This document shows, piece after piece, positions 14,114-63,681 of a stretch of 64,000 nt of DNA (positions are counted from its first letter, which is position 1; the number at the start of each line of letters is the position of its first letter). The notes below the pieces were generated by a model, which had not been told where the DNA came from, searched no databases, and saw nothing but the letters and a program-made list of their open reading frames with translations. Source of the stretch: Paramacrobiotus metropolitanus (lineage: Eukaryota > Tardigrada > Eutardigrada > Parachela > Macrobiotidae); assembly GCF_019649055.1 (NCBI RefSeq), contig NW_026570268.1, positions 744,001 through 808,000 of the forward strand, written 5' to 3'. The position numbers were made by a program, and so were the translations under genes.

Positions 14114-17100
14114 ATGAGCGCAACGCCACGCTTCTATCGGGAAGTGTGGACGGGTGCGCGGGAGACCAACTACGCCAACACGGTGCTGGTGCGGCGCGAC
14201 GGTGGCCAGTGGTGGTTAGGCTACGTTCAGGACGTCCGAGGAAAGGAGCTCCTCGTGGACTTCGATGCCAGCACAGTCCAGCCCCAGTGGATCCATACCA
14301 GTCTCATCTGGCCGCACCACTCACGATATTATACGTTGGATACGTACGTCAACACCGTCGTGCAGGTGGCGCTGCGGGAGCGCCCGGGTGGACCGCTGGT
14401 CTTCCGTCCCGCGCGCGTCGTGGCGCAGTGGCGAAGCGTGTTCCTGGCGGTGTGTCTGGATGAGCAGAAGCCTCAGGATTGCTTCTTCGTGCATGGCAGT
14501 CTGTTCGCGGAAGCCCTACCCGTGCCGGGTGATGGACAGAGTTTCTTCGCGCGCACGGATGGTCTGACGTACACCAAGCACGTCATCCCCTTCCCCGCCG
14601 CCGGCCAGCTGCGCCACGTCGACCACCTGCCGGAATTCGTGGGCCGGGCATGCCAGTTCCGTCTGGGCAGTGGAGAGCGTCTGTTCCGTAATCCGCCGTT
14701 GCTGCGGGTGGAGGGTGGTGGCACGCCGTTCTACGCCGTTCCAGCGTTCCGGGGACTCATCGGGGGAGTTTTTCGAGGAGTCGAAGTAGTGGTGCGCCTA
14801 TTTGTTCGTGCGGGAACGGACTCTGTGACGTTTGTCTGTCTGGAGATGCACAATGCGGCCGTCGGGCGCCGGATGTCCTGGAACGAGGAGGTCCTCAAGG
14901 AGGTCTGCCAGAGTTTCCTGCAGGAGCATTCAGTGGAGAACATTGCCGTCGTACCACAGCAGCTGGAGGGCGGTCAGTGCCTGCGTATAGTCTACAATGG
15001 ACTTCAAAATTTTGTTACATTCGGTCCGGGACCGAATGACCAGTAAAAATAAATGGCCGCGACCAAATGACCAATGAAAAGGGAACGTGCAAGACTTTGA
15101 ACACCTGCACCTTGCGCATTTCCCAACGAAAACCATCAACCGATATACCAAACGCAAGAGAAAAGAATTTTGAGAATTTCGATACCAAACAGGTCATCCT
15201 TTATGAGATCTAAGAGAAAATCGAGCCATTTTAGTTCGTCGTAGACAAAGCACACGATTTCTGTGTGAAAACTGAAATCAAACCGTGGATTCAAATCCTA
15301 TGCTATGTCTATGAGAAACTTTAGATGCGTCGATTTTCTCTTAGATCTCATAAAACACAGCTTGTTTGGTATCAAAATTCTTGAAATTTTTTTCTTATTC
15401 GTCTGAGATATCGTTCGAAGGTTTCCGTTTGGGAAATGCGCAAGATGTCAGCGTTAATGTCAGCAGGCCGATGGCCAGTTCAAAATTTGGCTGTTCAAGT
15501 ACAGAAAAGTGCCTGGTTGCGCGCGTTTTGTGATTATATAAGTGTAACAAAATTTTGAAGTCCATTGTAATGTGAATTATTCGACATGTTTTGCACTGCG
15601 GTCCACGAACGCCTTTTCAGTGTGGTTGCGCGTGCCGGTCAAAAACGGCACGGTATTGTATAGGTTGCTCCACGCTAGAAAACTTGATATTTATTCTTTT
15701 AATAATCTCGTGTTTTTAAGAATAATTTAATCCATGCAGCCGTAAAACGTAAAAAATGAGCACCGTAGCCGTAAAACGCTACGGTAAAACCGTACGTAAT
15801 AGTATGAAAATTTTGTACGGTTTGAGACCTCTAATGCACACGTAGTATTACAGTACTATGCTCATACTCGTATGCTTTTTGAAGGTGCCTCCGGCGGCGG
15901 CTCAAAAGGTGCGGAAGAAGCGTCCATAAAGGAACTGGCGATTCCGATCCTGACGTGCATCCTGACTGGTGTCGATGCGGATGCGCACACTCAGCTACGC
16001 TTTTCCAGGCGAGTTCTCCCAACTGAATGCGTTTGCCGCACGGATTAATATGCAAACTGCATCAGCAGCATTAGCGACACTGTTGTAGTGGTATCTTATG
16101 TTGCTGTCTTTGACCAGGGTGTGCGGGCTATGGAATGAGGTTGTGCGGACATACGGGCAGCGCGTCGTCATCCTGGACAGCGCCCAGATGTGGCCGCAAA
16201 GGGCCTGTACGCACCAATTCTCCTTTGAGATCTATCCCCGCTTCTTCAGGCTATTTACCGCGGTGGACCACGCCGTCACCGCCAACACTGCAGCACTGCT
16301 GCTGCTGGGCGACCGCGACGAGCTTCTGGATGACCAATGGGGGTTGATCGATCTCAAACAGAAAATGAAGATGGTCCGCAGTGTACTGCACACTAAAGGA
16401 ATTCACCTGTCCTTAATCGTGGTGCGGAACAAGGCTGTGGTGCCTGCGGACCCCGGGGATCGCTTTCTAGCCATCAATATCCCTTACCAGGCGGAGTATG
16501 GCATCGATGTCGCCGACGACGAGTACACACTGCGAGCGGTGTCGTACATGATGAGCGTTTGTGATGCGCTGGTCTTTGTCAACTACAAGGCGTCGCGCTC
16601 GATCCTAAGGTCAGCGCGGAACCGCATGTACATCCGCACCGACGAGAATTTCATACCAGCCTCCCTATACACCGACTGGAAAGAGGACTCCCCCATCGAC
16701 GTGGGTGTGACGATTCCGCTGATCCGCTTCCACTGCGACGAAGCCGCCACGGAGCAGCGCCGGCGCTTCCTGGCCGCGGCCAACGACAACTGTCCCGCTG
16801 TGAGGCAGCACGTCCGGGAAAAGATCGCCGGGTTGTTTGCGCGATGGGCGGACACGGTGCCCGATGACGGACGGGCAGGAATGCGCAAATTCCTGCAGCT
16901 GTAAGCAGTTTCTTTGCTATTTGGACGTTTTTTCGCGCTTCGGGCACTTTCGCGATACGGATTCGCGTGGTTGTTTCACCTTACTGTGACCTTAGAAAAC
17001 ATTGTCAATAATTTCGTGTTTTGTTATAATTTAACATTTTCATTCATCTCGTTAACATTTTCGTTAATCTCTGGTGTCCGTAATTACCGTGCAGCGGAAA

Positions 17101-17281
17101 TGATGTTTGTTGTCGAATTAGGTTCAACAGTCTGGGAGCGGGTGATGATGGCCGGCAGTGGGAGACGCTGGATATGCGCCGGCTGGATGTGGGTTTGCTC
17201 AACAACCTGACCTTCGCCGCCCTCAACGGATGCTACCTGGACGACGGCGAAGTGGAAGAAGTCGAGGAAGACAATGAGTAG
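14114..17281 (+). CDS. Tudor-like/F-box protein, copy 1
   Basis: Four exons: A 14114-14972, B 15885-16008, C 16118-16900, D 17122-17281; they join to 641 residues with intron phases 1, 2, 2. Exon A encodes a Tudor/SH3-like barrel (about residues 18-65: NYANTVLVRRDGGQWWLGYV, then DFDAS and QWIHTSLIWPHH). Exon B plus the start of C make an F-box (KELAIPILTCILTGVDAD, then RFSRVCGLWNEVV). Exon C is a long uncharacterised domain ending in RRFLAAANDNCPAVRQHV and MRKFLQL. Exon D gives WETLDMRRLDVGLLNNL and an acidic tail. The B-C intron uses a GC donor (CCAG|GCGAGT). The apparent stop at 16902-16904 overlaps a GTAAGC donor; conservation of exon D in the two paralogues supports splicing. F-box proteins normally recruit Skp1-cullin ligases; that role, and the identity of the N-terminal domain, are inferences. 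Paralogues lie at 54195-58421 and 61070-63681. Confidence 0.85.
14995..15567. mobile_element. fold-back MITE, TA target-site duplication, in intron A-B
   Basis: The element starts CAATGGACTTCAAAATTTTG and ends with the inverted complement, flanked by TA at 14993-14994 and 15568-15569. The arms remain similar for roughly 270 bp: both contain TGCGCATTTCCCAACG-like, GATACCAAAC and TATGAGATCTAAGAGAAAAT sequences in opposite orientation. The whole 573-bp insert is therefore nearly one long inverted repeat. It sits about 20 bp inside the intron, just after the exon A donor. No transposase is encoded. Confidence 0.85.
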
Positions 17282-17916
17282 TCGAGGAATTACGGTGCTG
17301 GTCATGTCCATTCGTCAGTTTTTTCTGGAATTTGTGTGGCATTTGGTTCCTGCTAACCCGTTGTGTTGATGGGTACGTCACTTTTCACGGGGTTTGTGCT
17401 TTAATATCCGGTCACATATAAACTTTAATTTCAACCTTGTACAAGCAAATGCCATTTACAATTTAAAACTCAAATACCGAACAGCTAGAACAAATAAAAC
17501 AGCTCTTCTAGCTCTTTTGAACAATGAGTAGTCGAGGAATTACGGTGCTGGTCATGTCCATTCGTCAGTTTTTTCTGGAATTTGTGTGGCATTTGGTTCC
17601 TGCTAACCCGTTGTGTTGATGGGTACGTCACTTTTCACGGGGTTTGTGCTTTAATATCCGGTCACATATAAACTTTAATTTCAACCTTGTACAAGCAAAT
17701 GCCATTTACAATTTAAAACTCAAATACCGAACAGCTAGAACAAATAAAACAGCTCTTCTAGCTCTTTTGAACAATGAGTAGTCGAGGAATTACGGTGCTG
17801 GTCATGTCCATTCGTCAGTTTTTTCTGGAATTTGTGTGGCATTTGGTTCCTGCTAACCCGTTGTGTTGATGGGTACGTCACTTTTCACGGGGTTTGTGCT
17901 TTAATATCCGGTCACT
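17271..17916 (+). repeat. 250-bp tandem triplication of the gene's 3' end
   Basis: The word ACAATGAGTAGTCGAGGAAT recurs at 17271, 17521 and 17771, an exact 250-bp period. Copies one and two look identical; copy three stops after about 146 bp at GGTCAC, where it meets a LINE fragment. The first copy contains the stop codon of the Tudor-like/F-box gene (TAG 17279-17281), so the 3' UTR is what was multiplied. Confidence 0.92.
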
Positions 17917-17980
17917 GTTTTCGGACTTTGTTGGTCAAATCAAAAACGCAATGCATAAGCAAGAAAATGAACACATTTGA

Positions 17981-18290
17981 CTATAACAGAAAAATTTCGT
18001 TTAGTTTACCTAGCCCTTCCATCGTGCCCAGCACTGAAGCCGCATTTCCCCGCTGAATTTCGATGGACAAACGCTGTCGCAGAAATTCGTGCGAGCGTGC
18101 TTCCCCGGTGTGCTGCTGCAGTTTTTTTCCCAGCTCTTTGATGATGGCGATCGCCGAAGGTCCCCACGGGCCCAGTGTTTCGAAAGCGATCGGGACGAAT
18201 AGGTAGCGGCCGGCCAGATAGAAATATAGTCCTGCTTTCTTTCCTTCTGCCTGCACAGCGGCCGCTCCCGCTGTGGTGGAAGTGGCTTTA
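17981..18290 (-). mobile_element. 3' end of a non-LTR retrotransposon
   Basis: The minus strand encodes AGAAAVQAEGKKAGLYFYLA, FETLGPWGPSAIAIIKELGK, FLRQRLSIEIQRGNAASVLG and then a stop. This is the same C-terminal module as the larger piece at 51704-52650. The reading frame here is open, so this is one of the younger copies. It begins directly after the 250-bp tandem repeat. Confidence 0.82.
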
Positions 18291-20440: not shown

Positions 20441-20453
20441 AGCGTTAACTCGC

Positions 20454-21675: not shown

Positions 21676-21822
21676 ACTGAAGTAGCATTACCACGTTGAA
21701 TTGCTAAAGAGATGTTCTGTTTCAAAAATTCAAGACTACGATTCTCGCCGGTTCGTCGTCTTGAATTTTTGAAACAGAACATCTCTTTAGCAGTTCAACG
21801 TGGTAATGCTGCTTCAGAGCGT
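21676..21822. repeat. head-to-head inverted duplication of a LINE tail
   Basis: About 59 bp on the left (TGAAGTAGCATTACCACGTT onward) are inverted on the right (AACGTGGTAATGCTGCTTCA), separated by roughly 20 bp. The right arm encodes FLKQNISLAVQRGNAAS, the conserved C-terminal LINE motif, so two copies of the same tail face each other. A few mismatches separate the arms. Confidence 0.8.
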
Positions 21823-21905
21823 CAGATTGTCAGTGGCTGTCGTCGGTTGACCGAGTTACTGGTCTGGTTGTACAGGTTCTGGTTGAAGCACTGCACCAGG
21901 CGCTG

Positions 21906-22770
21906 ATGCAGCGCCTTCCCGCCCTGCTGCGCCAGCCGCGGCCGCTTCCGGTGTGCGCTGCGCCGTTGGACGAATGGCGCGCCGTGAAGACGGATGTGTG
22001 GCAGCAAGTGTTCGGCCATCTCGATGCGACGGCGCAAACCAAGTTACGCCCGGTGTGCTCCGCCTGGAACGGTGTGCTATCCTCGACGCGGCGGCGGTGA
22101 CGGCCACCATGGTCATCGAGACGGACCGTAGCCGTCGTCGTACTGAGCTGCAGTACACTCTGACGGCGCCCCTCTTCCACTGCCTGAACCGCTCCACCAC
22201 GCACTTGGTCATCGATACCCGCAGCGGTCCCCTGGACACCATGCACTTCCTGATGGTGGCCGGCCGACATGGTCCATAACGTGGCGCGGACCCGGCCCGG
22301 GATCCGCCTGGCGGCGCTGTACGTGGTCGGCGGCACGAGCGTCCTGCCGGCGTTGGGCGGCTGGGAGGGATCGGCGCACGGGTGGTTCACCTTCCTGACC
22401 CGTCCGGACCCGTGTCGCGTGCACCATCCCCACGGCTGGACGGAACCCTCCTCCACGGATCAAGTGGATGACTTCATCGTCACCACGCGCGGTCTACCGT
22501 GTGCTGCCATCCATTTGGTCGGCTGTCGGGTGTCGCGTCAGTGCGGCCTGTGGTCGCGGCTGAACGAGGCGTGGGGCGCGGCCGAACTGGCCCCGGTGCG
22601 TTTGCCGTTGAGCGGGGAGTGGCCGGCCACGGTGTGGGATGCCATGGAAGCGCCGCTGCCGACGCCCACTGCCGACGAGGCGGACGAGCTACAGGCGCTG
22701 GCCGAGTGGCTGCAAGACATCGCGGCCGACGATAGCGCGGAGCGTCAGCATCACCGCCAGATGGTCTGGA
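21906..22770 (+). pseudogene. F-box gene with two frame breaks
   Basis: Coding similarity runs through three frames. The first has a good F-box (VWQQVFGHLDATAQTKLRPV, then CSAWNGVL) and stops at 22098-22100. The second carries TATMVIETDRSRRRTELQYT up to a stop at 22277-22279. The third runs from about 22271 (HNVARTRPGIRLAALYVVGG) to a possible donor near 22770. No splice sites explain the shifts, so either two small indels disabled the gene or the assembly has errors here. GC content and codon use stay high throughout, which suggests a recent event. The C-terminal domain differs from that of the Tudor-like/F-box copies. Confidence 0.6.
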
Positions 22771-22789
22771 AAGTAGGAGCCATTTTTCA

Positions 22790-23775
22790 AATGTATCATA
22801 TAAGTTATTATATCAAATATTTTTATATGTTATTTATTGATATTTTATATTTTAATATAATTATATGAAATATATCAGATATGTATCAGATATATGTAAG
22901 TATATGTTTTTAATTCCAGATTGTAATTGTATTTCAAATCTTTTCGAAGACGAGCAGAACTGTTTGAATAATGTGATATTTAATTTCTCAATATTTACAA
23001 GGCGAGCTTAGCTCAACAAACATGATCAAATGAAGAATTTGTCCCAGTTACATGGGAAGGGACCGTGCACAATACACTCATTGCATTATGAGCTGTGAGT
23101 GTTATGCAAAGTGTGTACTACTTACACGTACTAGTAATACACTTGCAGTTGCCAGAATCACTGAATCAGGTCGTTTATTTCCAAGTTAAATTACGTTAAA
23201 ATGCCGTACTGTAGCATCATCCGTCGGCTGAGTATCCTGTGTTGCGTATAGATGTTGTGCGTGGGCAGCGTGGCGCAGACCAGCGATCCGCGACCGTCAT
23301 CGCATTACCGCGGGAAGCAGTGGTGCTCGGAGGGACTGCACAATCTCGGCCTGGAGAAACTGTCCCGTAACGCGCTGCTCTCTCTCCTTTTCCTCTGGTC
23401 TTTCGTGCAGAAATCATCCGAGTGATCGTGGAAAGTGGGCGGAGTTAGCGGCGCCATAACCTGGTTTCATTTTGTTAGAATTACCGCTTTTTAACATGTT
23501 CTGAGCCGTGCTGGCTGTGTGATGAGTGTCGGGTTTGCGGCCCGGTGGTGTTTCCCTGCTTTTCTAAGGTTTTGTTTCTGTCACACTGGAAGGTGGTGTA
23601 AGATCTTTAATGTTAGTTAACCCGCCACCGAGGACACACAAAACGTGCAGGCGTTTTCACTCATCTTTAACACGTTAAATCATCCTTTTATACAATAAAT
23701 GCAAACAGTTTATGCCACTTCCGTCGATCGTTCATTTTAAAACCGAATTACACATGTATCAGTATAGAAAAACCG
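22790..23775. other. spacer without recognisable genes
   Basis: AT-rich TATATAAT-type sequence until about 22900, then ordinary spacer. No ORF with recognisable content was found on either strand. Confidence 0.4.
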
Positions 23776-24475
23776 TTGGCTACGCGACTATCACACAACA
23801 AAACGTCTGCAAAACGATCGAGTGGTCCTAAAAAACAAATTAGCCGCTGCGACGAAAAACCTGTGGCGAAATGTCCCACGACGAAATGTTCCGCGACCAC
23901 GTGGGCTGTCACGGTACTGATCGGCTACGCGACAGGTCGTCGCGGGACATTTGGTTTTACGGACACTTCGTCAAAGGACAACCAGTTTTTTGGCAAATAG
24001 TCATATGACTGTTCGTTCCCGTAAATCAGTCGATAAATTTTCGACTCCCCAAAAGTCGCGCAACCAAATATCACACAACAAAACGGCTGCAAAACGAGTG
24101 GTCCTAAAAAACAAATTAGCCGCTGCGACGAAAAACCTGTGGCGAAATGTCCCACGACGAAATGTTCCGCGACCACGTGGGCTGTCACGGTACTGATCGG
24201 CTACGCGACAGGTCGTCGCGGGACATTTGGTTTTACGGACACTTCGTCAAAGGACAACCAGTTTTTTGGCAAATAGTCATATGACTGTTCGTTCCCGTAA
24301 ATCAGTCGATAAATTTTCGACTCCCCAAAAGTCGCGCAACCAAATATCACACAACAAAACGGCTGCAAAACGAGTGGTCCTAAAAAACAAATTAGCCGCT
24401 GCGACGAAAAACCTGTGGCGAAATGTCCCACGACGAAATGTTCCGCGACCACTTGGGCTGTCAAGGTACTGGATC
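23776..24475 (+). repeat. 276-bp tandem repeat, about 2.5 copies
   Basis: The word TCACACAACAAAACG recurs at 23791, 24071 and 24347. The second and third units are 276 bp apart; the first is 280 bp because of an extra GATC near 23817. Units are otherwise almost identical. An 87-codon frame on the minus strand is repeated with each unit, which is a by-product of the repetition rather than evidence of a gene. The array ends at a LINE tail. Confidence 0.9.
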
Positions 24476-25042: not shown

Positions 25043-25054
25043 TCTATATATATA

Positions 25055-28705: not shown

Positions 28706-29410
28706 CTGTAAAGAAACCGTTCAGTTGCGAGGAATATTTAGGAATAACAATAATAATCCACGCTAGTTCCTGGTGCGCTAGAGAATCTCCCTCGTACAAA
28801 ATCAACACAACGTGCAATTCGTTAGCGTACCTGGCTTATCGAAGGTACGCTTCATCGGAGCCCGGGGAAACGAAGTCATTGTGGAAGGATATGGCGGGAT
28901 GGGGGAATTGCGTCGCGTCGAGTCGCTCCCACTCCCAGGGAACCCTGCAAACTAGTGCGCAGCACGGTGCGGATAATCGAGTAAATTCTCTATTCTGTGA
29001 AAGACGATCGCAGCAGCACGTCGCAGTGGGCGCAAATAATGGCAAATTACGACATCAGCGCAGAAAACAAACGAGAATTAAAGGACCGCAGTGGAAATTA
29101 AAAGGCACCAGTGGAATTCAATGGAAAATGAACATCATGGGCCCATGGCAAAAAAAGTTAATCAGAACGAGGAGAAGGCTGTTGTACAAAATCCAGGTCT
29201 GTCGCAATACCAACCGCCGATAACGCCAGTTGGGCTGCTGGTGAGTCATGCAGGATCAGACATGAAATTTCGACAAATTTCTACTGAGTTTTTCTTTCAG
29301 CAGGTTTTGCAGTCTTTCTGCTGTACTTTTCGGATTGTTAATTGCGAATGCGCTTCATGTTTTTCGCTGAATGAGTGGATAACTTGTAACGTGGTAATTT
29401 TCTGTGGACT

Positions 29411-30931
29411 ATGTCATCATCCGCTGGGGAATCCTTTGAGAAATTCGTAACAGAGACCGCCAGCAGCGTGGGGGATTTCATCAACCAGACGGGCGATCGC
29501 GTGGCGGATCTGTTGAAGGATGCGGTGGGGATGAAGCGGCCGAGCAGCAGTGAAGCACACGAGATGGGCAGCAGTAAATCCAAGCCGTCCCCCGCCACCA
29601 CCACCGCCCCCCTCATTTCCCCCTTCAACGTGGCGTACGGCGTCAACCCGGGCGGGAAGACGGTGCTGTACCCCGTGGATGTTTCCAAGGCATTCCCCGA
29701 GCACGATGCCATGGCACTGACCGTACACGACCTTCAGCTGCATCTACAGTCCTTGACACAGGTGCCCGTGGCGCGCCAGAGTCTCATTTACAAGGGCGCC
29801 CATCTGCAGGCTGCGCAGCGTCTGGCGGATCTGCAACTGCGCCACGGCGCCAAACTCATGATGCTCGGCCAGGCCGAGGTCCCCCGCGATCCCGACGAGG
29901 TAAGGTATTTTTCCAAAAATATTTTAAAAATAAAAATAATATTCTCAAGACATATGGCCTGTAAACTTTTAAAATCTGTCATTTTATAAATGGGTTTTTG
30001 TTCGTTTTCAGTCTTGCTCTTCTTTCTAATCAAAAGTGGTCATAAAACTAAAATAAAAACATTGCATAATAAGCCAGTTTAAACTAATTAAATATTTTAA
30101 ATTATGAGAATGATAAATAGAGTGTAAGAGTTTGTAAAACAATTATTTTGCCAGGTTATGTTGCAAATTTTAAAGAATTAGTGTTGAAAAAATAAATTTA
30201 AATGAAGAATTAAAGGCCAATATTAAAATTCATATTTCCAATTTAAAAGGTGTATTGTACTGACGATTAATCTGGGCATAAAATTTAAACAAAACTTAAT
30301 AAAAACCAAACCAATTTAAATAGCATACATATTTAAAAGAAAAATAACGATAAATTCAGATTAAAAGATTTTTTACAAATCGATTATTTGTTAATTTATG
30401 TTGCGAACTAGCGTTGAAGAAATTCAGTAGAATAAATTCAGAATTAATACTATTAAATTTAGAATAAATTAAATGGCTATTAAATTCAGAATGGATTAAA
30501 TGGCCATTAAATGTAGAATAAATTTCCGTTAATTGTAGGAGTTCAAGAAGCGTCTGTCGGCGCTGGAAGACGAGATCTCGGCGGTGAGCATGGAGCTGCT
30601 GGAGATGGAGATGTTCCTGGACAGTATTCCGCGCACCGAGAAACCGGCCTTCAAGACGGCCCACACGCGGCTCCTGCACCTCAACGAGGCCCTCATGAAG
30701 ACCGTCATGAAGATCGACGCCGTGGAGATCCCGGCGGAGCGGACGGAGGCGCGCGCCCTGCGCAAAAGTCTCGTGCAGCGCGTCCACGTTGAGATGGCGC
30801 GCGTCGACCGCGCCATCGAGCGCTGCGCCAATTTCCTCAACGTCCGCTCGCGCAGCACCTCCCGCTCGCGCTCCACCTCGCCGTCCGACCGCAAAAACCA
30901 GCCGGACGCCTCCAAAACCGGCGGATCATGA
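29411..30931 (+). CDS. BAG1: BAG family chaperone regulator 1 (Hsp70 nucleotide exchange factor)
   Basis: Two exons, 29411-29899 and 30539-30931, join in phase 0 to 293 residues. Residues about 1-60 are a low-complexity Ser-rich leader. A ubiquitin-like domain follows (about 75-155), ending YKGAHLQ ... LQLRHGAKLMMLGQ. Exon 2 is the three-helix BAG domain (FKKRLSALEDEISAVSMELL, EARALRKSLVQRVHVEMARV), with an Arg/Ser tail RSRSTSRSRSTSPSDRKNQ. This UBL-BAG order is that of BAG1, which binds the Hsp70 ATPase domain, releases ADP and can link Hsp70 clients to the proteasome through its UBL. A likely poly(A) signal AATAAA is at 31342. It is convergent with the ARL6IP4-like gene. Confidence 0.93.
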
Positions 30932-34660: not shown

Positions 34661-34730
34661 AAATGCCGCCGCGTGAAACCATGCGCGAGGAGGTGACCAT
34701 CACCCAGCGCCGGAAGGCCTCAAACTCCCG

Positions 34731-37700
34731 ATGCTGATCCTGGCCGTCGTGCTGATCGGCTCGCTGGCCGCCATGATCGCCCTGGCCGTCCTCTACTCCC
34801 AAGCGGAGACCGACATCGCCGAGAAGGACAAACTCATCGCCAACCTGACCGCCACCCGCCCACCGGTAGCCCCCACCGAGGCCCCGACCACCGGCCTCCC
34901 GCCCCTCCCGCCCACCTACCGCCTGCCGCGCTCCGTCCTCCCCGAGCGCTACGAACTGCACCTGACGGTCGACATCCCCTTCAGCGACGCCGACATCGTC
35001 AACGGCAGCTCCTTCACCACCCGGGGGCGGGTGGTCATGACGCTGACCGCCCGGGAGGCCGTCAACGAGATCGTCTTCCACGCCAGCCGCGATCGCTTCA
35101 GCGGGCGCATCAACTTCACCGAACCGGACGTCCAGCTGGAGAAACGGGAGACCAACGGGACGCTGACCAACGTCACCTTCGCCGGGCTGCGTTTCGAGAG
35201 CAACGCGGAACTGGCGCGGGTGATCGTCGCCGGCGCGTTGGAGGTCAACGCGACGTACCTCCTGACCATCGCCTTCACCGGCAACGTCGCCACCGAGGAC
35301 AACCAGGGACTGTACCGCAGTTCGTACCGGACGGCGGACGGCACCCGGCGGTGGTTGGCGGCCAGCCAGTTCCAGCCGTACAAGGCGCGCCGGATGTTCC
35401 CGTGCTTCGACGAGCCCGGTTTCCGGTCGGTGATCAAGACGACGCTGCAGTATGATAAGCGGTTCACCATGACGCGCAGCAACGGCCAGGGCACCGTCGT
35501 GGGGGAGGTCAAGGAGGGCGACCGCACCTGGGAGACCATGACCTTTACGGAGACGCCCCGGATGCCGGTGTACCTGATGGCGTTCCTGATCAGTGACTTC
35601 GGGATGGTGTCGGCGACTGCCACCACCGGGGAGCACAGCGGGACGGTGACGGTTATCGCGCAGGAGGCCCTCCTGGGCGAGGCCATGGGAAAACAGGGCG
35701 ATTTCGGGCTGCAGCAGGCCAAGATCATGATCGAGAATTTGAGCCATAACTTCAGCCAGCCATACTTCAGTCTTCTGCCCAAATTAGGTCAGCCGACAGC
35801 TACTAAATATTTATTAAATAGATAACATATAATAAGAAATTATTAAAATATAATAATTATGAGCTTTATTGATTTTACATGTATTAAAATTTATATGTTT
35901 AATTAAAACTTTGTGAAATTAATTTAGTAATTTAAATACAATCTGTAAAGTATAATGCAGCTTTATGAATTTAAAACTAATGTCTTGAATAAAAAATTTA
36001 TAAGGAATTTTAATTAAAAAACATATATGATAATATAAATTTGAAAAATTAATAGAGTAGGCAATACGTTAATAACTTTGCAGGTATTTGTTATAGTGTT
36101 TTAGTATTTTTACCAAATATGATTATGTAACTATATACATATGCGTAGACAACACAGCAATTCCTGACTTCGACGCCGGCGCCATGGAAAACTACGGCCT
36201 GGTGCATTACCGCGAATCGCGTCTTCTCTACCGACCGCAAGTAAACAGCGCTGACGAGAAGCGCAGCATCTCCGCCATCGTCGGCCACGAGCTGGCGCAC
36301 ATGATGTTCGGCAACCTGGTGACCTGCGACTGGTGGTCCGACACCTGGCTCAACGAGGGCTTCGCGCGCTTCTTCCAGCACGAACTGATGTACGACGCCA
36401 AACCCGAATGGGACCTGGTAAGTGGGACACCCTTCCATCGTGACCTTTATATGTCCGACACCCCTGTGACCTTTCTGATCCCCTCCCGTTGTGACCTTTA
36501 CATGTCCCACCCTCCTATGACCTTAGGGACACCGTCCCAAAGTGACCTTTACATGCCCAAAAAACCTTGTGACCTTTCCTTCTAACGTGACCTTTACATG
36601 TCCGACACTGTTGGCCTTACGAACACCGTCCCATTGTGACCTTTACTTGTCTTGACATCTTTTTGACCTTTAGGAGCCCCTCTTCCCATTCTGGGTGACC
36701 CGCGTGGCCTTCGAATCGGACTCTCTGGAGACCGCCCACCCCCTGTCCAACAACGACACCAACACCCTGTCGCAGATCAGCAACATGTTCGACACCATCA
36801 CCTACTCCAAGGGCGCCTCCATCCTCAACATGGTCATGGGCTTAATGGGCCGGCAGCGTTTCTACGCCGCATTGACCCGCTACTTGGCCAACCACAAACT
36901 CGGCAACGTCGTGCCCGATGACCTTTTGCGCCAGTTCACCGCCGAGATGCAAGCCGAGGGCATCGACTTCGCCACGCGGCTGGATTCCTGGATCTACAAG
37001 AGCGGCTACCCGGTGCTGCAGCTGAGCGTCAACAAAGAGACGGGAGCGGTGACCTACCGGCAGCAGCGCTTTCTCTTCAAACGCCACATCTTCAACGAGA
37101 GCGACACGGTGAGCAATCTGGTCAACATCCTGAACGACACCAGCATCGCGCCGGAACTGGATCATTTATGGCACATCCCGCTGACCACCCAACGGCCGGG
37201 AAAGACGGCACAAGAGGGAATGGCCAAGGTCTGCTGGATTACGCAGCGTGAAGGTAACGTCAGAGAGGGCTTTGGGTCGGTGACCTTTCGTAATTTTGAT
37301 ATTGGACAGGAAATTTGGCCAATGCCTGTACCGGCGCCCAGGCGCTAGAGCTACCACCCGCGGGGGGCGCGGTGGCCAACACGGACTGGCTGCTGGCTAA
37401 CGTGCACCAGCATGGCTTTTACCGGGTCAATTACGATTGGGACACGTGGCATCGAATTTTCCAACAACTGGAGACAAACCATTTGGTATGATTTGCCTAG
37501 AAAGAAAATTTTAATTTAATTTAATTTAATTTAATTTATTTTAATATTTTAATTTAATTTAAAATTCAATTTTTAAAAAATAATTTTAAATGTTTACAGT
37601 TGATCGAGGAGACCAACCGCGGCCAGATTATTGACGACGCCTTCAATCTAGCTCGGTACGAAATACATGTGTAATTAATAATTAGAAGATGACCTTTCTA

Positions 37701-46633: not shown

Positions 46634-48620
46634 ATGACTGGACGTGGTAACCGAGGACGGCAGCCAGCGAAAAGCGCACCCACGACATCCAAAAGGGTGA
46701 AACGGACCACCACCGCCAGTAAGCTACCCACCACGGTACCACCGCGACTCGGAAGCCCAGGAACCGACGGTGCAATCTCTCGCGCAGCAGCAAAAAAAAC
46801 ATCAGGAACAGTTGGACAAAATTTTTGCAACAATGGAGCGTCTGGCACCACCGCCCCCACCACCGCCACAGCCAGCATCACCAGCACCGGAAAAAGTCCC
46901 AGATCCATCAGCACCCCTGCCGCTGTCTCCTTCCTTCAACCTACATATCCAGATCGGTGACTACTTCGGTAGAACCGTGCACTAGACGGATCACAACAGA
47001 CACTCCACCACCCGCAAGCGTAAACGCAGTGAAGATAAAGGTAAACATGGCAGCTCGCAGTCATCTGCAAGCAGTGAATTATCGGACACAATGCCAGTAC
47101 GCTTGCCGGCCCGCGAGCGCACTGGGAGACGCCCAGACGTCTTCAGCCGACTAGGCCCCCTGCGGGGAACTGCTGCCGGTAACACAACCATTCCTCCCCT
47201 CCCGCACCATTTTCCGTCGCTGGATAAGAAGCTCGTAAAAAAGCTGCTCGACCACACCGAATACATTGATCTGGACTTACTCTTGCTGAAGAACCGCGTC
47301 GAAAAACCAAAGAGGCTGGACTCCAAAATGGTTTCGACAACGGAAAGGTCACCATTAAGCCGCAAACGGGAAAGTTCGAATTACCTGTTCCACATCATGG
47401 ATGCGCGGCTTCGGCGTGTTCGCCAGTTACCGCTCTCACACCGCACCGGAACTAAGCACTCGATTCTACAAATACATGGACATAATCGCGTCGTACGTCG
47501 AGCGTGGGGTTCCGACCGCCAACTGGCTCGAGTACGATCGGCAGTTCCGCGCGCACAGGACTGGCCATCCGTACGACTTTGACCAGTGGACTCATCAACA
47601 TCAAGATACGTACACTGAATGCATCCAGAACGCAATGCACGCCGAACGCGAAACGTCGCCGCGACCGGAAAAGAGCGTACAGCACACACGCAGCCTAAGC
47701 AACTTGCTGCACGCTCACATTGCCAGCTCTACCAGGCAGACCTACGTAACGGCCGTCAAACAGTTCTCAGCATTTTGCAGCTCCAGATCCGCTCAGCCAT
47801 TTCCAGCGACGCCGGACATCACCGCGGAATACGTCGCACACCTGTATTCCACAAGAAAATCCCTCCGGACGGTAACCGTTTATCTTGCCGGCATTGACAA
47901 TTACCACCGTGAAGCTGGCATGACATCTTCAACCGGCCACGACATTGTGATTCGCGCCTTGCTAGGCTACAGGCGACTGGCACCACCCAGCGCAGACAAG
48001 CGACAGCCAATCACGCTGGAGATGATGCGATACCTGAAAGACGTCATCCGTTCCAGTCAGTTGTCCCATCATGAGCAAGCATTGTGCTGGGCAACGTTTG
48101 CCCTTATGTACTTTGGTTCCTTTCGGGTAGGAGAAGCAGTATCCCCCGGCACGAGCCACTGCGATCCTCGGCGAACTCTTGTGCTAGAGGACGTGCAATA
48201 TCACGGTAGTTATATCGCCATCCGATTAAAGGTCAAGAAGACCGATCCAACAGGTCAGGGCCATTCCGTAGCGTTGACGGCGACCGGTCATTCCGTGTGT
48301 CCCGTGCAGGCCTACCGGAAGCACCTGGCTCATGCTCAGTTCAGTTCGACAGTTAAAGCACGGCGCTCCTGATCCATCAGGACGGCAGATACTTCACTAG
48401 GCGTTCCGTGGAAGCCTGCCTCCATCGTCTCCTGGAGAGACATCCGGACCAGCTCCGCATCAACACCCACAGCTGCCGCATCGGTGCGGCAATTACCGCC
48501 GCGGTTAACAACGTGCCAGACCGTGTGATCCAACGCGCAGGGCGATGGAAGAGCAACTGTTACACGTGCTACATGCGGACACCGCCATCTACCACGCTGA
48601 ATCCCTACTCCAACGGGTAA
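46634..48620 (+). mobile_element. tyrosine-recombinase element (DIRS/Crypton type), frameshifted
   Basis: An N-terminal gag-like region (46634 to about 47640) includes IDLDLLLLKNRVEKPKRLDS and, after a frame change near 47400, RGVPTANWLEYDRQFRAHRT. A tyrosine recombinase follows: N-terminal core-binding part (SSTRQTYVTAVKQFSAFC), catalytic Arg in FGSFRVGEAV, a Lys region, then after a frameshift near 48365 the HSCRIGAA box (HxxR) and GRWKSNCYTCYMR with the nucleophile Tyr. Such recombinases integrate circular DNA without target duplication. No reverse transcriptase lies between the two parts, so this is either a Crypton-like element or a DIRS element with an internal deletion. At least two frame breaks make it inactive as read. 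Termini were not found. Confidence 0.8.
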
Positions 48621-54194: not shown

Positions 54195-57100
54195 ATGGAC
54201 ATTTTCATGCCTTCGTATCCGTTTCGCGGGCTAGCTTGTGGTCCGCGGGAGATCAACTACGGGAACACCGTGCTGGTGCAGCGCGACAATGGTGAACGAT
54301 GGCTGGGATACGTGCAGGACATTGACGCGGACCGGATGTTCGTTAATTTCGATGCGACAACGGCCCCCGCCCAATGGATCCATTCCCGTCATGTCCGGGC
54401 CCAGCGGTTTCTAAACGATGGCCTCTGGTCCGACTACTCCGTGCACCAACAAGTGGCGGCCACCGGCAGTTATCCGGTGCAGGTGGCGCTGCGACGTACC
54501 GCCGACGGCCCACACATATTTCGCCCGGCCCGACTAGTGACGCCAACGGCGGCGCTCGAAATTTTTTTCGTCCAGGTGAATGATGGAACGACGACACGGT
54601 ATCTCGTGGCCCACCAGTGGCAGATTGCCATCACTCTGGCAGCCGATGCGCCGCCCCTTTTTCAGCAAACCAGCGGGCTGTACTATCGCAAGTTCATTGT
54701 TCCCTGGGTGAGCGCTCCGGGCAGACTGAACGTCCAGGCAATACATAGATGCCTAGAAGAAGCTGGAGTCGCATCCAATTTAGCGATGTTTGGAACTAGT
54801 TACAAGTGCAATGCGTATGTGGCCTATCGCGTCTGCGTTCGTGTCATCGGGAATTTCCTGAGTTTTATTTGCGCGCAGTTCCATGGAATTCATCCGAACT
54901 CTCGAGCGGAATGGAATGAGGACATCTTTAGTGAAGCCTGCGCAAAATTCCATTCTTATTTCACACTTTCAGAAGATGTAATGGAGACCTCTGACACAGG
55001 AGTAATTGCCGGTATGTACGTTCTTATCTCGACTAGGGGGACAGCAACGCCAATGGGGCTGTTTTAGGAAACCATCCTTATCTAGTCGGCTGTAAGTTGT
55101 AACAGTTGACGACAAAAACGGCAAGTTTTCGTTTCGTAGTTTTCGTTTCGTAGAAAACAAAAACATGACTAGTTTTCGTTTTAATCTGCACCTATGGCAC
55201 TGTTAGTGAAAGTTAAATTTTTCAGGGTATGTGTTTTTGACTTCTCAAACTTTATCGGTCAAATCATACTTGGGAGCAAAGTAGGGAAAGAAACCTGCAA
55301 ACTACAACAAGAACATCTCATTTAATTTATCCAGCCCTTCCATCGTGCCAAGCACTGACGCCGCGTTACCCCGCTGAGTTTCTATCGACAAGCGCTGTCT
55401 AAAAACTCATGCGAGCGTGCTTCGCCAGTTTGCTGCTGAAGTCTCTTCCCCAGTTCTTTGATAAACTTGGAAGTTCTGACTTGGATTTACAGTATCCCAC
55501 AGCATTTTCTACATATTAAAATGTTCTACATATTAAAAGATGCTCTTAAAGCATCTCAACTCGAATTGCTTACTCAGCGCTTCGAGGGAGCTTACGACTG
55601 TACAGATTGGAAAAGGATGCAAGGTCACGAATCAGCTATGATTACGATCAGGGCCGTAGCGAGGTCCTCGGGATGGGGTCCGCGCAATTTGGCTGCGCCC
55701 GCTTTGAAGTTCGATCGGCGCCCAACGCGCCCATAAATTTCGAAGCCTGCGCCTGTAAAAACGCTTTACTTCGTGCTTTAATAGTTTTAATTAGTAAAAA
55801 TAATTTAATTGTCATAATTATTGACCACCGTACATTAGGCCAAAGGTGCGGCATAGGTCCTGTCTGCGCCCTTTAAAAAATCCAGAAGTTTTGCGCCCGT
55901 GCGCCTTTGCACCAGTTTCGGGTGCAAATTTGATTCAAAGTTGGCCGAGGAGGGGTAGGCGTGCGCTAGTACGCCTATACCCTCGCTACGTCCCTGATTA
56001 CGATTACCAGAAGCGAGAAACACTACTGCGGCTACTCCCATATAAAGTCTACTTCGGCTGCCGCCGGATCCGCAGCAGCGCAGGCGGAAGACCAAAAAGC
56101 CAAGTTATATGCATATCTGGAGGGCCGATACATCTTTGCGCCTCTTGCATTCGAAACTCTTGGACCTTGGGGAAAGTCGGCATCAGTTTTAGTGAAGGAA
56201 ATTGGCAAACGACTACAGTAGCATACTGGTGAGCTTCGGTCAGTCGAATTTCTCCGTCAGCGTTTGTCGATTGAAATCTAAAGAGGCAACACAGCTTCCG
56301 TTCTCGGAACCATGGATGGAGCCGAGAAATTTAAGGAAATTCAAGGCTTGCGATAAAATATATAGAAACACCAGTTTACTGTGCGGCCAGGCCTAATTTA
56401 TTAGACGTCGTCCCGTACGAACGGAAGAAGAAACAAAACTAAAATCAGGTGTCCTTAGCTTCCGATGAATGTGTCTAGTCATCCTACGCGCATGGTGAGC
56501 TAAATAAGTTTAATCTTTTAACGTCCGCACACTATCTGGGCTTGGACCCAATCCGGGGCAGCAGACACAGAACTGGTCAGAACAGGTGGTTACACATGGT
56601 GAACCGCTTCGGCAACATTCATCCGCCTTTAATATCCTTCATGTGTCCTCCAAATTTTCTATATTTTTAAGCACTGCCGTATTCCATCGTATCTCTGAAG
56701 TTCCGAAGTATCCTTTACGCACTCCACTCAAAAACCTAAAAAAATTATCCAGATACATGAAAGATACTCGACAATACAGCAAGAATGCGCTAATTATTAC
56801 TGTAAAAACATGTCTCGAAAAAATTAACGTGTACGAAGTCGTTCATATCTATGCAATTTGGAAGTAGCAAACCGTACTAAAGTTGCGTACGTTTTCTTTG
56901 TTAGCAGTATAAATCATCCAGTTAACAACAGTTACATTGTTACAGCGGTTATACACTACTTGATGATTGCGTAAGCTTAACCGTTTAAAATGGTTAGGTA
57001 GTTATGGCTCCAGTCAACGCGTCTGCGACTAGAATACTTTTACGGTAATAATCCTATGTTTTCGGAAGCAGGAATATCTAGCACGAGCAGGAATGTTTTC

Positions 57101-58421
57101 GGAAGCAGGACAGACTGGCCTAAAATCTACTCCACTTCTGGAATCTCCATCAGATGTTAGAGTACAAAAATCCGGAAATTATGTAATAATAATTAGTATG
57201 ATCCTCCTCGTAGGCAATGACGGATGTATTGGAGACTTGGTGTTGCCGGTTATGGCCAATGTTCTGATCTCTCTGGACCTGTACACTCAAGCAAAAATGA
57301 AAAGGTGACACACTTCCGTACATTATCAGTTTATAGCTTGACCGCTTTCTAAAACTGCCTTGATTATACTCGAATAAGGGTGTTATATCACTTGAAGGGT
57401 GTGCATACTGTGGTGCCAGCTTTTAACAACCAACGTTGCCAGTCTACACGTTGTTCTCGACAGCTGCCTAGTGAACCCGAAGCAACTCTTCACCTCTTTC
57501 GCCGGCGACGATATGTACCTTTTTGCGTGGGCGGTGAACCAGGGCGTTACCGTCCACACCAAAAGTATGACGCTGCTCGACGACATGGCATACACCAATC
57601 TAGCCTTAGTTACCAAAGTCGTGGTCGAACTGCTGACTGCCAGGAAGATTCATCTCCACTACTTCCTTATCAAAGATGGCTTCACGGCGGATGTATTGAC
57701 GACATCCAGGCACCAGTACGACTTTCCTTATCCACATACGGATAACAACGAGGCCGACCGTACGTGGAAATGCTACAATTTAACGAAACTCATCACGATC
57801 AGCCGGCAATTAGTTCTGCGGAATTATGCCGTGGAAGATTTCGTCGAAAGAGTGTGGCTTTTGTTTCCTAACAGCGACTTTCCACGCGATGAAGCCGGAT
57901 ACAACGATTCCGACCGGCACGCTGTAGATCGCAAACTGCCAATAACCATCCCGTTTTTAATGCTGCACTCGACCGATGGAGATGCCGGTATTCTTCAGCA
58001 GTTTATGTTCGCAGCGGAACAGAGCTGTCCTCCCCTTAATCCAGATGTCTACGACCGCGTGCGTTCCGTTCATCGGCGATGGGTGGAGAAACTGGAATAC
58101 CCAGCCCATTGGCGGCGCATCCGACACTTTCTTCAACTGTAAGTTCAGCGCAAAATCTGAACACTTTTCATAGCGTTTTTACCAGTATCGCTCGTTCGTG
58201 CACTTCTGCCGGATGACATCTGGTTTTGTAAAAGGTGTCTACTGTCTAGTATCACTTCCTGTGAATGGGTTCATGGTTTCGCGGAATCATATAGGTACAG
58301 CGGCTTCCGATCCGACGGCAGTATTCTCAATTGGACGGATGTGGACCTGAGGCGGCTGGATGTGAACTATCTTACCAAGCTGGCGGTAGCAGCAATTGAT
58401 ACGCATTTTGTTGCGGTATGA
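54195..58421 (+). CDS. Tudor-like/F-box protein, copy 3
   Basis: Exons A 54195-55011, B 57214-57304, C 57398-58138, D 58295-58421 join to 591 residues with the same 1-2-2 phases as copies 1 and 2. Exon A has INYGNTVLVQRDNGERWLGY and FDATTAPAQWIHSRH. The F-box spans B and C (DLVLPVMANVLISLDLY, then MKRVCILWCQLL). Exon C is the most diverged (FAAEQSCPPLN in place of AANDNCPAV) but keeps HWRRIRHFLQL. Exon D has NWTDVDLRRLDVNYLTKLAV. ATG 54207 (MPSYPFRG) aligns better with the starts of the paralogues and may be the true start. Intron A-B is 2.2 kb and has taken in two LINE tails and a hAT-type MITE. The exon C stop overlaps a GTAAGT donor. Confidence 0.8.
55317..55462 (-). mobile_element. LINE 3'-end fragment in intron of copy 3
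   Basis: Minus-strand DNA closely matches 17997-18142: LGTMEGL, QRGNAAS and TQRLS-type coding with a one-base deletion near 55403 that breaks the frame. It is inserted antisense to the host gene. Confidence 0.72.
55649..55996. mobile_element. hAT-type MITE with 8-bp target-site duplication
   Basis: The ends CAGGGCCGTAGCGAGG and CCTCGCTACGTCCCTG are inverted repeats. Both are flanked by the same 8 bp, ATTACGAT (55641-55648 and 55997-56004). CAGGG ends with an 8-bp duplication are the signature of hAT transposons. No transposase fits in 348 bp. Confidence 0.88.
56030..56355 (+). mobile_element. LINE 3'-end fragment with internal stops
   Basis: The plus strand encodes KSTSAAAGSAAAQAEDQKAK, then FETLGPWGKSASVLVKEIGK, a stop, FLRQRLSIEI, a second stop, and RGNTASVLGTMDG. 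It is the sense-orientation counterpart of the 55317 fragment and is clearly dead. Confidence 0.78.
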
Positions 58422-60060: not shown

Positions 60061-60099
60061 AATGACCGGACGGTAATGACCTCGGTCCCCTTCAGCCAC

Positions 60100-60240
60100 G
60101 GAAAGAGTCCACTCAGTTTCTGAAGCAGCGAATCAGTGCTGCTCTAATACGAGGCAATGCTGCTTGTGTACAGGAAACGTTCTGTATCGGTAAGAGACTG
60201 GACGAAGTGTACTACGTACTGAAGTGATTTACTGCGTGAC
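60100..60240 (+). mobile_element. LINE 3' tail, KRLDEVYYVLK subfamily
   Basis: The plus strand encodes FLKQRISAALIRGNAACVQE then TFCIGKRLDEVYYVLK and stop. The last 80 bp are nearly identical to 32945-33029. Confidence 0.78.
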
Positions 60241-60421
60241 TTTCTGTTTCACCAATGTATATTTGTGTAAAATCAATAAATATTCACCTATTATTTACAT
60301 TATTCCAGACTTGACTTTTGATACGAATCGATCCACCATCTATGGCCGATAATCATACGGCGAGAGAGTATCCCGTGGAGTTTTCTCGCGGGGTCTTCTA
60401 TTAAAGCGACGACCCAAAATA

Positions 60422-60736
60422 TTGCAAGCTCGAAAGCTTCCGGTGGTGTTGCACATTTGCCAGGCCAGTAAACGCCGTAAATATCTGTACGCGTTCCTGG
60501 AGCAAATGGGTTACCTAATTTATCCCTTGGCTATCGGAACACTCGGTTTATCTGGCACGGCTTTCGCAGAGTTTATTCGTTTTGTTGGCAGAAAGATTCG
60601 CAGTGTGTCAGGAGAGCCCATTCGACCATTTCTTAAGCAACGTTTAAGCTTACCTGATGTTAAGAAAAATGCTGCCGCTCTTAAGCCTATGCACGAGCCA
60701 GAAGTCCAAAGTCTTTGTGCTTGGGAGCTTGGGTGA
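60422..60736 (+). mobile_element. LINE 3'-end fragment
   Basis: An open frame encodes CQASKRRKYLYAFLEQMGYL, YPLAIGTLG, FIRFVGRKIRSVSGEPIRPF and LKQRLSLPDVKKNAAALK. The RGNAAS position is altered. It is the same module as 13134-13500 but on the other strand. 60737-61069 shows no gene. Confidence 0.7.
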
Positions 60737-61069
60737 GGATTAAGGAACGCTTTAACCCAACAAAACTGGAACTTTTATTTATTAATTTTAATAATTCTGC
60801 ATAATATTATTGCCGGCAAGAGAAATTTAATAGGACCTTCACTTAAAATCCAAACAGCTTCATCCACAGATTAAAAACAATGCTTAGCGTTTCTAATGTA
60901 TAGTTGCACACCTACAAAGTACAGTATAAAAATGTTAATACATAACTCAGTCCAGACAACAGCACGTTACAACAAAGAGTCTTAAGAATCTCGAAGCCTT
61001 AAAAAATTGAAATATGCGGCGGTGCATGTAATCAAACAGGCTGTGGCATTATGTTGCTGCCTGCAAACT

Positions 61070-63681
61070 TCAGCCTTTGTAATACGCATCGAGTGCGGCA
61101 AAGGTTAATTTGTTCAGGCAGGACAAATCCAGCTGTCGCAGGTCGACGTAATCCCAACACTGTGGAATGCCATCGAGACGCACGGCGTTCAACCTACTCA
61201 ATTTACAAATGCCACATTCAAACCCAGGTGCCAAATAGCTCTATGTTTAATGCTTAGTTAAGCCATACCGAAATACGGCATAAAGTGCAAACACGGACAA
61301 TATTTAGACATACTACTTTACCGTTAAGATTTTAATAGCTGCTCTACCTATCATTATTTTATCATTTAAATAGCTATTTTAGCTTCCATAGCTAGCTAAT
61401 CGCGAGTACGTAACGCCTCTGCCGTACTTACATTTTAAGGAAGTTGCGGATCCCCACCCACTGCTCGGGATAGGCCAGTGTCTGCAGCCAGTGGGCCTGC
61501 ACCCCGGCGACCTTCTCCAGCACCTGCTGCGTAACGGCCGGGCAATTGTCATTAGCCGCCGCGACAAAGCGCTGGCACTGCTCCGCGGCTGTCTCCGTGC
61601 AGCGGAAGCGCACAAACGGGATAAACACATCCAGGCGGCCTTCCTCTTCATGCCGCAGAAGAGCATCGTCGCATTCCGGTCCCGTCAGTCCGGCCGTGTA
61701 GAACTGCATGAGCAACAGAGAACTGCTGCCGATGCCATCGGATGCGGTGTAATTGAGCAGCACCAGCGCCTCACACATGCTCGTCAAATACGACAGGTAG
61801 TGGCACTCCAAAATCCCATTATCATCCGGCGCCAGGAACATGAAGGAATCGCCCCCCGACCGGCCCATCTCGTTGCCATTCTTGCCAATGAGCAACGGTA
61901 GGCGGATCGCCTTGTTCTTCAGGATACGGCATATCGCCCACATTTTAGATGTGTAATCGTGCCTATCTGTGTCAAACCGTTTGTCATCGGGCGTTCGCTC
62001 GTCGACCAAAGCCACCGATCGCGTCTCCTGGGAGATGGCTTGCTCCAGTATCGTTCTAAGTTTGTGGTTTGCGAACGCGTTGAAAGCCCAGAATATCGAG
62101 CCATCCAAATCGTCCGTTGTGCAGAAGGAACGGATAACAAAGATGATGTGGCGATGCCGGACGTAGTCGCGCAAAATGAGCCTCCACAACGCGCACACCC
62201 TGTAAGCGGTACAGGGCAAATTCAGTTTATTAATTTACAGTAGGCTTAATACTGAGTTAACCGTATTCAGTATTTTACAAATGGATGCGCCGACAATCTG
62301 CGTACTTGAGCAAAAGCGAAGTACCGAATGTAACCAAGAGATAATTTGACGTTCGTGTTTTGACTTGCCCAATCGAAGCTGATATGACCGGTTTCCCAGC
62401 ATAAAATTTAAAATTCCGAGCATAACCTTTAGATAAGTTAAGTCTATTTAGTCTTTAGTTATAGGCTATTTAGTATTTGGCCTTTAGTTAAAACAACTCA
62501 GCTAACTTACCGGCTGACTTCTAACTGAGAAATTACATCCAGGCCGAGGAAGATACTGGCCAAGATCGCAGCCGGGAGCTCGCAGATGCCCATTTCGCGC
62601 ATATCTGTAAAAATTATTATCCGGTTAACGGTAGCTATAGCAGGCTACTAACAGCATTGGTACATTGAAAGGAAATCGAGTGAATCCGAAAACTTGGACG
62701 TCTTACTTTAAAGGCATAATAATTTTAACATAACCGGAATGCCGAGATCAGCCCTTTGGTTGCTCTACCAACGAAGCACTTACCATGCTGCAAATGGACC
62801 CTGGGCAAGGTAGCGAGCACAATTCTGCCGCCTTGCGTAAATTCTCTTGACAGTTGCTCGGCGAGGTAGCTGTGGCAGACGTCCTTTAGAGACTCTTCAT
62901 TCCAGAGCATACTCCGTCCCCCTGCGTCGGCGTGCACTTCGGCGCAAATGAAAGTGACCGTGTCGATTCCCGCTCGCACAAACACACGGCAAGCGTTATC
63001 AAACTCATAGAAACCGCCCATCTGACGGTGCACTGCCAAGCAACGGAACCAGAATTTAGTCATATGCCCTATGTCAATCCTTTCTAGTCGACAGCTGGTG
63101 TTGCACGGATCGCCAGGGCCGAGCAGAATCTGACAAGCACGAACCAGAAATTTGGGCATAAAGGTTACATCGCGCACCAGATGCGCCGTCTCCACAGCAA
63201 TGACGTGCTTTTTATACAGGAGCCCGTTGGTTTTATTAAAAAAACTTCCCTCGCCATTCGAAGTTGGCAGTAGTGCGGTCAGCTGGCACACCGGCACCAT
63301 GCGGCGTTCAGGTGGAGTGTTCTGGCTTGGTTGATTCAGGCTGACAGGGCAAAACATCCCGTACCGATTCTCAATGACGGTTGCTGGCTGGAAGACGAAC
63401 GGTCCGCCGGCTGTCTCCCGCAGCGCCACGTATACGGGAAGACTCGGCAATGGGTTCAGATAAACTCTAACGTAGTGATGCGGCCACAGATGTTTAGAAT
63501 GAATCCACTCAGTAGTGACCGTACTGGCATCGAAGTCAATGAAGAAATAGTCGCCCTCAATATCCTGAACGTATCCCAACCACCACTGGCCGTTGTCACG
63601 TTGCACCAACACCGTGTTACCATAGTTCATCTGGCGCAGAACCGTGCGACACTCCCGATAATAGCGTAACGTATAAGACAT
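61070..63681 (-). CDS. Tudor-like/F-box protein, copy 2
   Basis: Exons A 63681-62784, B 62604-62511, C 62199-61432, D 61193-61070 join to 627 residues; all introns are GT-AG with phases 1, 2, 2. The N-terminal Tudor/SH3-like domain reads NYGNTVLVQRDNGQWWLGYV then FFIDFDAS and EWIHSKHLWPHH. The F-box is ELPAAILASIFLGLDVISQL then VSRVCALWRLIL. Exon C ends with QRFVAAANDNCPAVTQQVLE and GIRNFLK; exon D gives WDYVDLRQLDLSCLNKLTFA. ATG 63681 (MSYTLRYYRE) is preferred over the in-frame ATG at 63729 because it aligns with copy 1 (MSATPRFYRE). The codon read as a stop after FLKM overlaps a GTAAGT donor. This is the cleanest copy, with ordinary intron sizes (179, 311 and 238 bp). It points towards copy 3 (convergent). 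Confidence 0.85.

Follow-up and report, generated by a model that had tools for sequence, protein, structure and literature searches.

The window analysed here is a stretch of 64,000 nucleotides from the tardigrade Paramacrobiotus metropolitanus (RefSeq assembly GCF_019649055.1, contig NW_026570268.1, positions 744,001 to 808,000 of the forward strand). It contains three divergent four-exon genes, designated copies A, B and C (Table 1), for which the predicted layout is a tandem Agenet/Tudor-like module, a middle domain, an F-box and a family-specific C-terminal domain. F-box proteins are substrate adaptors of SCF (Skp1-Cul1-F-box) ubiquitin ligases, and copies A, B and C are interpreted, with a probability of about 0.6, as members of an F-box superfamily that carries the tandem module and most likely supplies SCF substrate adaptors. 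What the analysis shows directly is the gene structure, the sequence relationships between domains, the number and clustering of the copies, and purifying selection.

Gene structure of the three copies

All three genes had been proposed in a first-pass annotation and were borne out at their coordinates: copy A (641 codons, 14114-17281, + strand), copy B (591 codons, 54195-58421, + strand) and copy C (627 codons, 63681-61070, - strand) each consist of four exons that join into a stop-free frame. Splice sites were placed by eye and then checked computationally, and the shared intron phases of 1-2-2 in A, B and C held up. All introns are of the GT-AG type except intron 2 of copy A, which is GC-AG (AG/GCGAGT); the donor of intron 2 of copy B is weak (GTGACA). 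The sequence AANDNCPAV does occur in two copies, A and C, but the C-terminal motif described as DLRRLD is exact in copy B, with DMRRLD in its place in A and DLRQLD in C.

Identity to copy C is 46% for A and 33% for B over exon 1, and 31% and 24%, respectively, over exon 3; being so divergent, the three genes appear to be old branches and not recent tandem duplicates. Among the matches listed, the closest to exon 1 of copy C is 78% identical and lies on a different contig. The middle domain of copy C contains a Cys/Cys/Cys/His pattern at exon 1 residues 193, 197, 214 and 218, kept in 25, 26, 26 and 20 of 28 copies, respectively, and missing from copies A and B. The pattern is a possible zinc site.

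Two repeat structures are associated with copy A. Intron 1 contains a 577-bp element (14993-15569) that ends in perfect terminal inverted repeats of 27 bp, has internal inverted arms of 111 nucleotides (78% complementary) and resembles a miniature transposon. An exact 250-bp tandem repeat (17271-17915, 2.6 copies) begins in the last codons of the gene, so that the gene end is repeated downstream.

Table 1. Exons of copies A, B and C and the fourth superfamily member in the window (domain names are predictions)
Feature	Position	Strand	Content and remarks
Copy A exon 1	14114..14972	+	Putative tandem Tudor/Agenet-like module, middle domain; ends in phase 1, donor GTCAGT; profile A1 E=3.9e-104 (copy A is itself a row of A1)
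Copy A exon 2	15885..16008	+	F-box, first half; GC donor
Copy A exon 3	16118..16900	+	F-box, second half; C-terminal domain with AANDNCPAV; sister profile A9 E=3.3e-8
Copy A exon 4	17122..17281	+	DMRRLD
Copy B exon 1	54195..55011	+	Putative tandem Tudor/Agenet-like module, shortened middle domain; sister-subfamily profile A7 E=0.0013
Copy B exon 2	57214..57304	+	F-box, first half; weak donor GTGACA
Copy B exon 3	57398..58138	+	F-box, second half; C-terminal domain; sister-subfamily profile A9 E=3.5e-9
Copy B exon 4	58295..58421	+	DLRRLD
Copy C exon 1	62784..63681	-	Putative tandem Tudor/Agenet-like module, middle domain with Cys/Cys/Cys/His pattern
Copy C exon 2	62511..62604	-	F-box, first half; joined piece 22.3 bits versus Pfam cut-off 20.5
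Copy C exon 3	61432..62199	-	F-box, second half; C-terminal domain with AANDNCPAV; sister profile A9 E=8e-5
Copy C exon 4	61070..61193	-	DLRQLD
Fourth superfamily member, broken	21807..22865	+	F-box and C-terminal domain over overlapping frames 21807-22097, 21887-22276 and 22254-22865

F-box and C-terminal domain

The F-box was correctly predicted to be split over two exons: it straddles exons 2 and 3, and the junction in copy C has ELPAAILASIFLGLDVISQLEVSR on the exon 2 side and VCALWRLI on the exon 3 side. Neither half alone reaches the Pfam cut-off when the exons are scanned separately. Joined across the intron, seven of ten pieces hand-chosen from the loci with paired exons (see below) exceed the 20.5-bit cut-off of PF00646, that of copy C scoring 22.3. 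The split F-box is further backed by homology to a sister subfamily of clear F-box genes (described below), represented by profile A9, whose members match the Pfam F-box in 15 of 15 cases by construction, having been picked from Pfam F-box matches. The domains after the F-box are homologous between the window and sister subfamilies (E=9e-12, probability 97%), and with the F-box removed the homology is retained (E=2.9e-11, score 60.8, whereas 100 shuffles reached at most 10.2). A single shuffle of A9 out of 97 gave 129.6, exceeding the true score of 76.6; it was treated as a script artefact because the repeats stayed low, both the 120 clean ones (at most 11.6) and the 100 without the F-box. Skp1 is present in the genome, with four matches among six candidates.

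When 26 members of the window family and 15 of the sister subfamily were scanned against Pfam, no FTH, FBA_2, leucine-rich (LRR) or WD40 repeat match came up at E<=1, and in the scans made the middle and C-terminal domains match no Pfam family over its cut-off. Exon 3 has no match among PDB sequences at E<=10, and no relative turned up when prokaryote and viral contigs were scanned by pattern.

The F-box scores of copies A (12.0 bits) and B (13.6 bits) fall short of 20.5, and one relative (C148) has no match, all of which weighs against the main interpretation. Together with the altered or shortened middle domains of A and B, these scores raise the rather unlikely alternative that Skp1 binding has been lost in A, B and some further members, which would then act as decoys or scaffolds, at odds with which the exons of both genes are still open and exon 3 of each matches the sister profile (E=3.3e-8 and 3.5e-9). 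Copies A and B are placed in the F-box superfamily despite their sub-threshold Pfam scores because their exon 3 is homologous to that of the sister F-box genes.

Copy number and the sister subfamily

The first-pass annotation spoke of three copies; A, B and C are indeed intact, but they are a small sample of a family with hundreds of copies. With exon 1 of copy C as the query, the genome (169,799,020 bases in 533 contigs) yielded at least 141 matches (140 of 830 candidates scored), 125 of which are stop-free within the match and 16 of which contain a stop; exon 3 of copy C yielded at least 151 (148 of 691 candidates scored), both counts being minimum values. The exon 1 motif W-L-G-Y/F-V-Q-D, taken as an exact DNA pattern, occurs at 231 sites genome-wide, compared with none for the reversed control. 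The 140 exon 1 places are spread over 45 contigs, with 17 in a single 75-kb run of contig C11.

Exons 1 and 3 were paired at 25 loci, including A, B and C, and exon 2 with its F-box was found by script in 24 of them and by motif in the last. Since the script presupposed phases 1-2-2, the evidence for phase conservation comes from A, B and C only. A joined stop-free protein was obtained from 20 of the 25 loci, with exon 4 in 14 of those 20; the other five gave none because no donor site was present. Within the window, the fourth superfamily member (Table 1) is either a pseudogene or the result of assembly errors. Its three frames match profile A9 (E=2.7e-8, 1e-4 and 2.8e-8); in Pfam its F-box scores 15.0 bits, under the cut-off, and DUF2378 scores right at its own cut-off (22.2) in the first of the three frames.

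Pfam F-box matches number at least 150 in the genome, and all 150 that were scored (from 1080 candidates) exceed the cut-off. Sixteen such loci were inspected, the eight best and eight hand-picked from further down the ranking, with 1.5-1.7 kb examined upstream; barrel-like repeats in an upstream exon were recognized by eye in seven (L003, L005, L006, L007, L071, L074 and L076), the exon being only partly seen in L005 and L076. One sister exon 1 used as a query gave at least 193 matches (150 of 705 candidates scored). Of the 150 Pfam F-box matches, 35 are preceded on their own strand, at a distance of up to 4 kb, by a sister exon 1, compared with three that have one downstream and eight that have one on the opposite strand. 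None of the 140 placed exon 1 sequences of the window family lies at such an upstream position for any of the 150 scored Pfam F-box matches, a caution for annotation, the F-box of the window subfamily being split by an intron. The exact sister F-box motif R-C-R-R-x-C-x-L-W occurs at 221 sites genome-wide and at none in the control; the 231 and 221 motif sites include broken copies, and an upstream barrel was shown for only part of the 221.

The probable N-terminal tandem module

Profile searches upheld the earlier prediction of a royal-family-type, Tudor-like N-terminus, but the single barrel of that prediction is probably a tandem Agenet/Tudor-like pair of the FMRP/FXR type. Domain assignments rest on sequence profiles. 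A first-barrel profile built from 28 copies retrieved eight distinct PDB sequences at E<=10, all of them Tudor/Agenet and belonging to five proteins: FXR1 (E=0.004), FXR2 (E=0.0048), FMRP (four constructs), Polycomb-like PCL and eggless. Exon 1 of the window family is collinear with that of the sister subfamily over both barrels (hhalign E=0.001; score 18.0, with no more than 10.4 in 98 shuffles), and a merged profile of the two subfamilies (31 sequences, both repeats) matched the tandem Agenet domains of FXR1 (E=3.4e-5, profile positions 16-149) and FXR2 (E=6.6e-4). Seven of the 11 merged-profile matches are FMRP-family proteins or a plant DUF724 protein, which is presumably an Agenet protein. 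The sister profile alone places FXR1 at the top, but at E=0.12 and with CD69 and GCN2 beside it. Below the Pfam cut-offs, window exon 1 matches Agenet in 9 of 28 copies (best 0.001) and Tudor_4 in 8 of 28, and the consensus matches Tudor_4 at 0.0019.

Several results weigh against this assignment. The best first-barrel match has a per-domain E-value of only 1.4, the per-domain values being weaker than the full ones because the two repeats of FXR1 sum. Four of the 11 merged-profile matches are CD69, the whole exon 1 profile retrieved pieces of PEX5 and Arc but no Tudor from PDB, and the hhalign probability of the alignment between window and sister exon 1 is just 21%. No single member or consensus exceeds the Pfam cut-off for Tudor or Agenet, sister members have no Pfam match to either, and genome searches with PF18358 and PF05641 were empty. 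The unrelated TibC_1st scores similarly (7 of 28 members, best 0.00083), and PUA_4 also matches the consensus. On its own, barrel 2 of the window family retrieves no Tudor, and the evidence for a tandem arrangement therefore comes from the sister subfamily and from the merged profile; a comparison of barrel 1 with barrel 2 in the window family by hhalign detected no internal duplication. Finally, the residue at the first position of the aromatic cage, judged by the spacing in plant ADCP1, is an arginine (R28), so that any such cage is at best partial.

Residues N19, W34, F50 and W59 (copy C numbering) do not vary among the 28 aligned copies. In the first-barrel PDB alignment, F50 aligns with the phenylalanine of the FMRP sequence 'AFEN', which we take to be F32. 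FMRP F32 is a putative methyl-pocket residue (PMC5430443), and the cage of plant ADCP1 consists of Y129, W134 and F151 (PMC6318295). The barrels of these F-box adaptors might nevertheless read no methyl mark and instead serve simply to bind proteins or nucleic acids or to dimerise, a possibility at clearly less than even odds that would fit the apparent arginine at the first cage position, the failure of every Pfam reader model to pass, and the reported binding of FUS and LSM14A by the FMRP tandem Agenet module with low specificity (PMC5430443). The invariance of W34, F50 and W59 in all 28 copies and the strong constraint on the first barrel (see below) weigh against this possibility, as does the precedent of ADCP1, whose tandem Agenet domains read H3K9me through a Y/W/F cage (PMC6318295).

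Selection on the superfamily

Ratios of nonsynonymous to synonymous substitution rates (dN/dS) were pooled over pairs with dS <1.2 (112 of 378 exon 1 pairs and 128 of 325 exon 3 pairs), which are non-independent and have about half of their synonymous sites changed. Within exon 1, the ratios are 0.15 for the first barrel, 0.40 for the second barrel, 0.36 for the middle domain and 0.22 for the exon end, with 0.31 overall; exon 3 has a ratio of 0.40 (0.27-0.47 by part). Pooled dN/dS is thus below 1 in all regions, with a maximum of 0.47: the family is under purifying selection, which is strongest on the first barrel.

These ratios bear on two other explanations. A mobile element or repeat that mimics a gene family, its copies mostly dead, might account for the many copies across many contigs and for the insertion with terminal inverted repeats in an intron of copy A. 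This explanation is extremely improbable and was rejected on the identical intron phases of the multi-exon genes A, B and C, the divergent open copies (125 of 141 stop-free) and the dN/dS values of 0.15-0.47; no transposase or integrase domain was found in the exons scanned. Alternatively, the genes may constitute an arms-race repertoire like that of nematode F-box genes, in which fast-duplicating adaptors would degrade foreign, viral or transposon proteins or serve as antidotes in selfish toxin-antidote pairs. Expanded, fast-evolving F-box families have been proposed as immune elements and nematode F-box antidotes are known (PMC12680543), and hundreds of clustered copies, some of them broken (16 of 141 with a stop), would suit such a role. 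It is offered tentatively, given that dN/dS (pooled rather than site-wise) is nowhere above 0.47 and that, of the parts measured, the first barrel shows the greatest conservation.

Comparison with known families

The numbers of F-box genes vary between Caenorhabditis species, for example 377 in C. elegans and 1426 in C. remanei, mostly with FTH or FBA2 domains (PMC8665587). The P. metropolitanus superfamily resembles the FTH/FBA2 expansions in its hundreds of F-box genes, tandem duplication and long family-specific domain after the F-box (PMC8665587), and differs from them in the putative tandem Agenet/Tudor-like module ahead of the F-box. A new N-terminal domain was also fused to an F-box gene that then expanded in the Caenorhabditis F-box A2 family, but in that case a transposase helix-turn-helix was captured, whereas the domain found here is Agenet-like and in tandem; neither 'tardigrade' nor 'Tudor' occurs in the main text of that report (PMC12062965).

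The putative N-terminal tandem Agenet module is shared with FMRP and FXR proteins, the best structural match of the merged profile being 3kuf. Unlike these proteins, the superfamily has an F-box instead of KH domains, none of which is among the matches in Pfam scans of exons 1 and 3, and hundreds of copies. KDM2A and KDM2B, with the layout JmjC-CXXC-PHD-F-box-LRR, likewise combine chromatin-related modules and an F-box within one protein, and PDB matches include their F-boxes, but JmjC, CXXC, PHD and LRR are absent from the Pfam scan matches of the present family. Plant ADCP1 also has tandem Agenet modules, three of them, and no F-box is mentioned in the parts of its description that were covered (PMC6318295).

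The statement in the first-pass annotation that no named family fits agrees with the searches of Pfam, PDB sequences and, at surface level, open-licence literature, which gave no match to a characterised family and, in the literature, no F-box expansion in Paramacrobiotus or other tardigrades and no Agenet/Tudor-F-box family. The family is apparently undescribed and represents a large expansion of F-box genes whose architecture is new. To our knowledge, no other large animal F-box expansion has a reader-like module in front.

Other features of the window

Neighbouring open reading frames at 29390-30928 with ubiquitin-like and BAG domains resemble a BAG co-chaperone gene. An open reading frame at 47359-48369 has a tyrosine-recombinase N-terminal domain (Phage_int_SAM_4, 30.6 bits versus a cut-off of 27) and is probably part of a mobile element. 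Exons of an M1 aminopeptidase (34680-35822) and of an M14 carboxypeptidase (3063-3755) appear ordinary, and a tandem repeat with a unit of 276 bp (2.5 copies) is located at 23789-24471.

Possible function and significance

In the proposed mechanism, the F-box would dock Skp1 and thereby bring Cul1. Through the conserved first barrel, nearly all members would be tethered to one shared type of ligand, which may be a methylated lysine or arginine carried by histones or RNA-binding proteins. The variable second barrel, middle domain and C-terminal domain would choose the protein to be marked, which SCF would then ubiquitinate. A further, quite unlikely extension is that hundreds of reader-guided adaptors hold one modified partner in chromatin or ribonucleoprotein through the near-invariant tandem barrel while the variable C-terminus picks intruders or other targets, for use against transposons, viruses or selfish genes; such a repertoire would be a proteolytic counterpart of the KRAB zinc-finger or nematode F-box repertoires.

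The published assembly has 24,903 predicted genes (PMC8277472). If the interpretation of A, B and C as F-box adaptors with a tandem Agenet/Tudor-like module is true, about 450 motif sites of two sister subfamilies, set against that total, share one undescribed adaptor architecture. P. metropolitanus would then provide a further large animal F-box expansion alongside those of nematodes, one in which the steering of a variable set of SCF ligases by a shared reader module would be testable.

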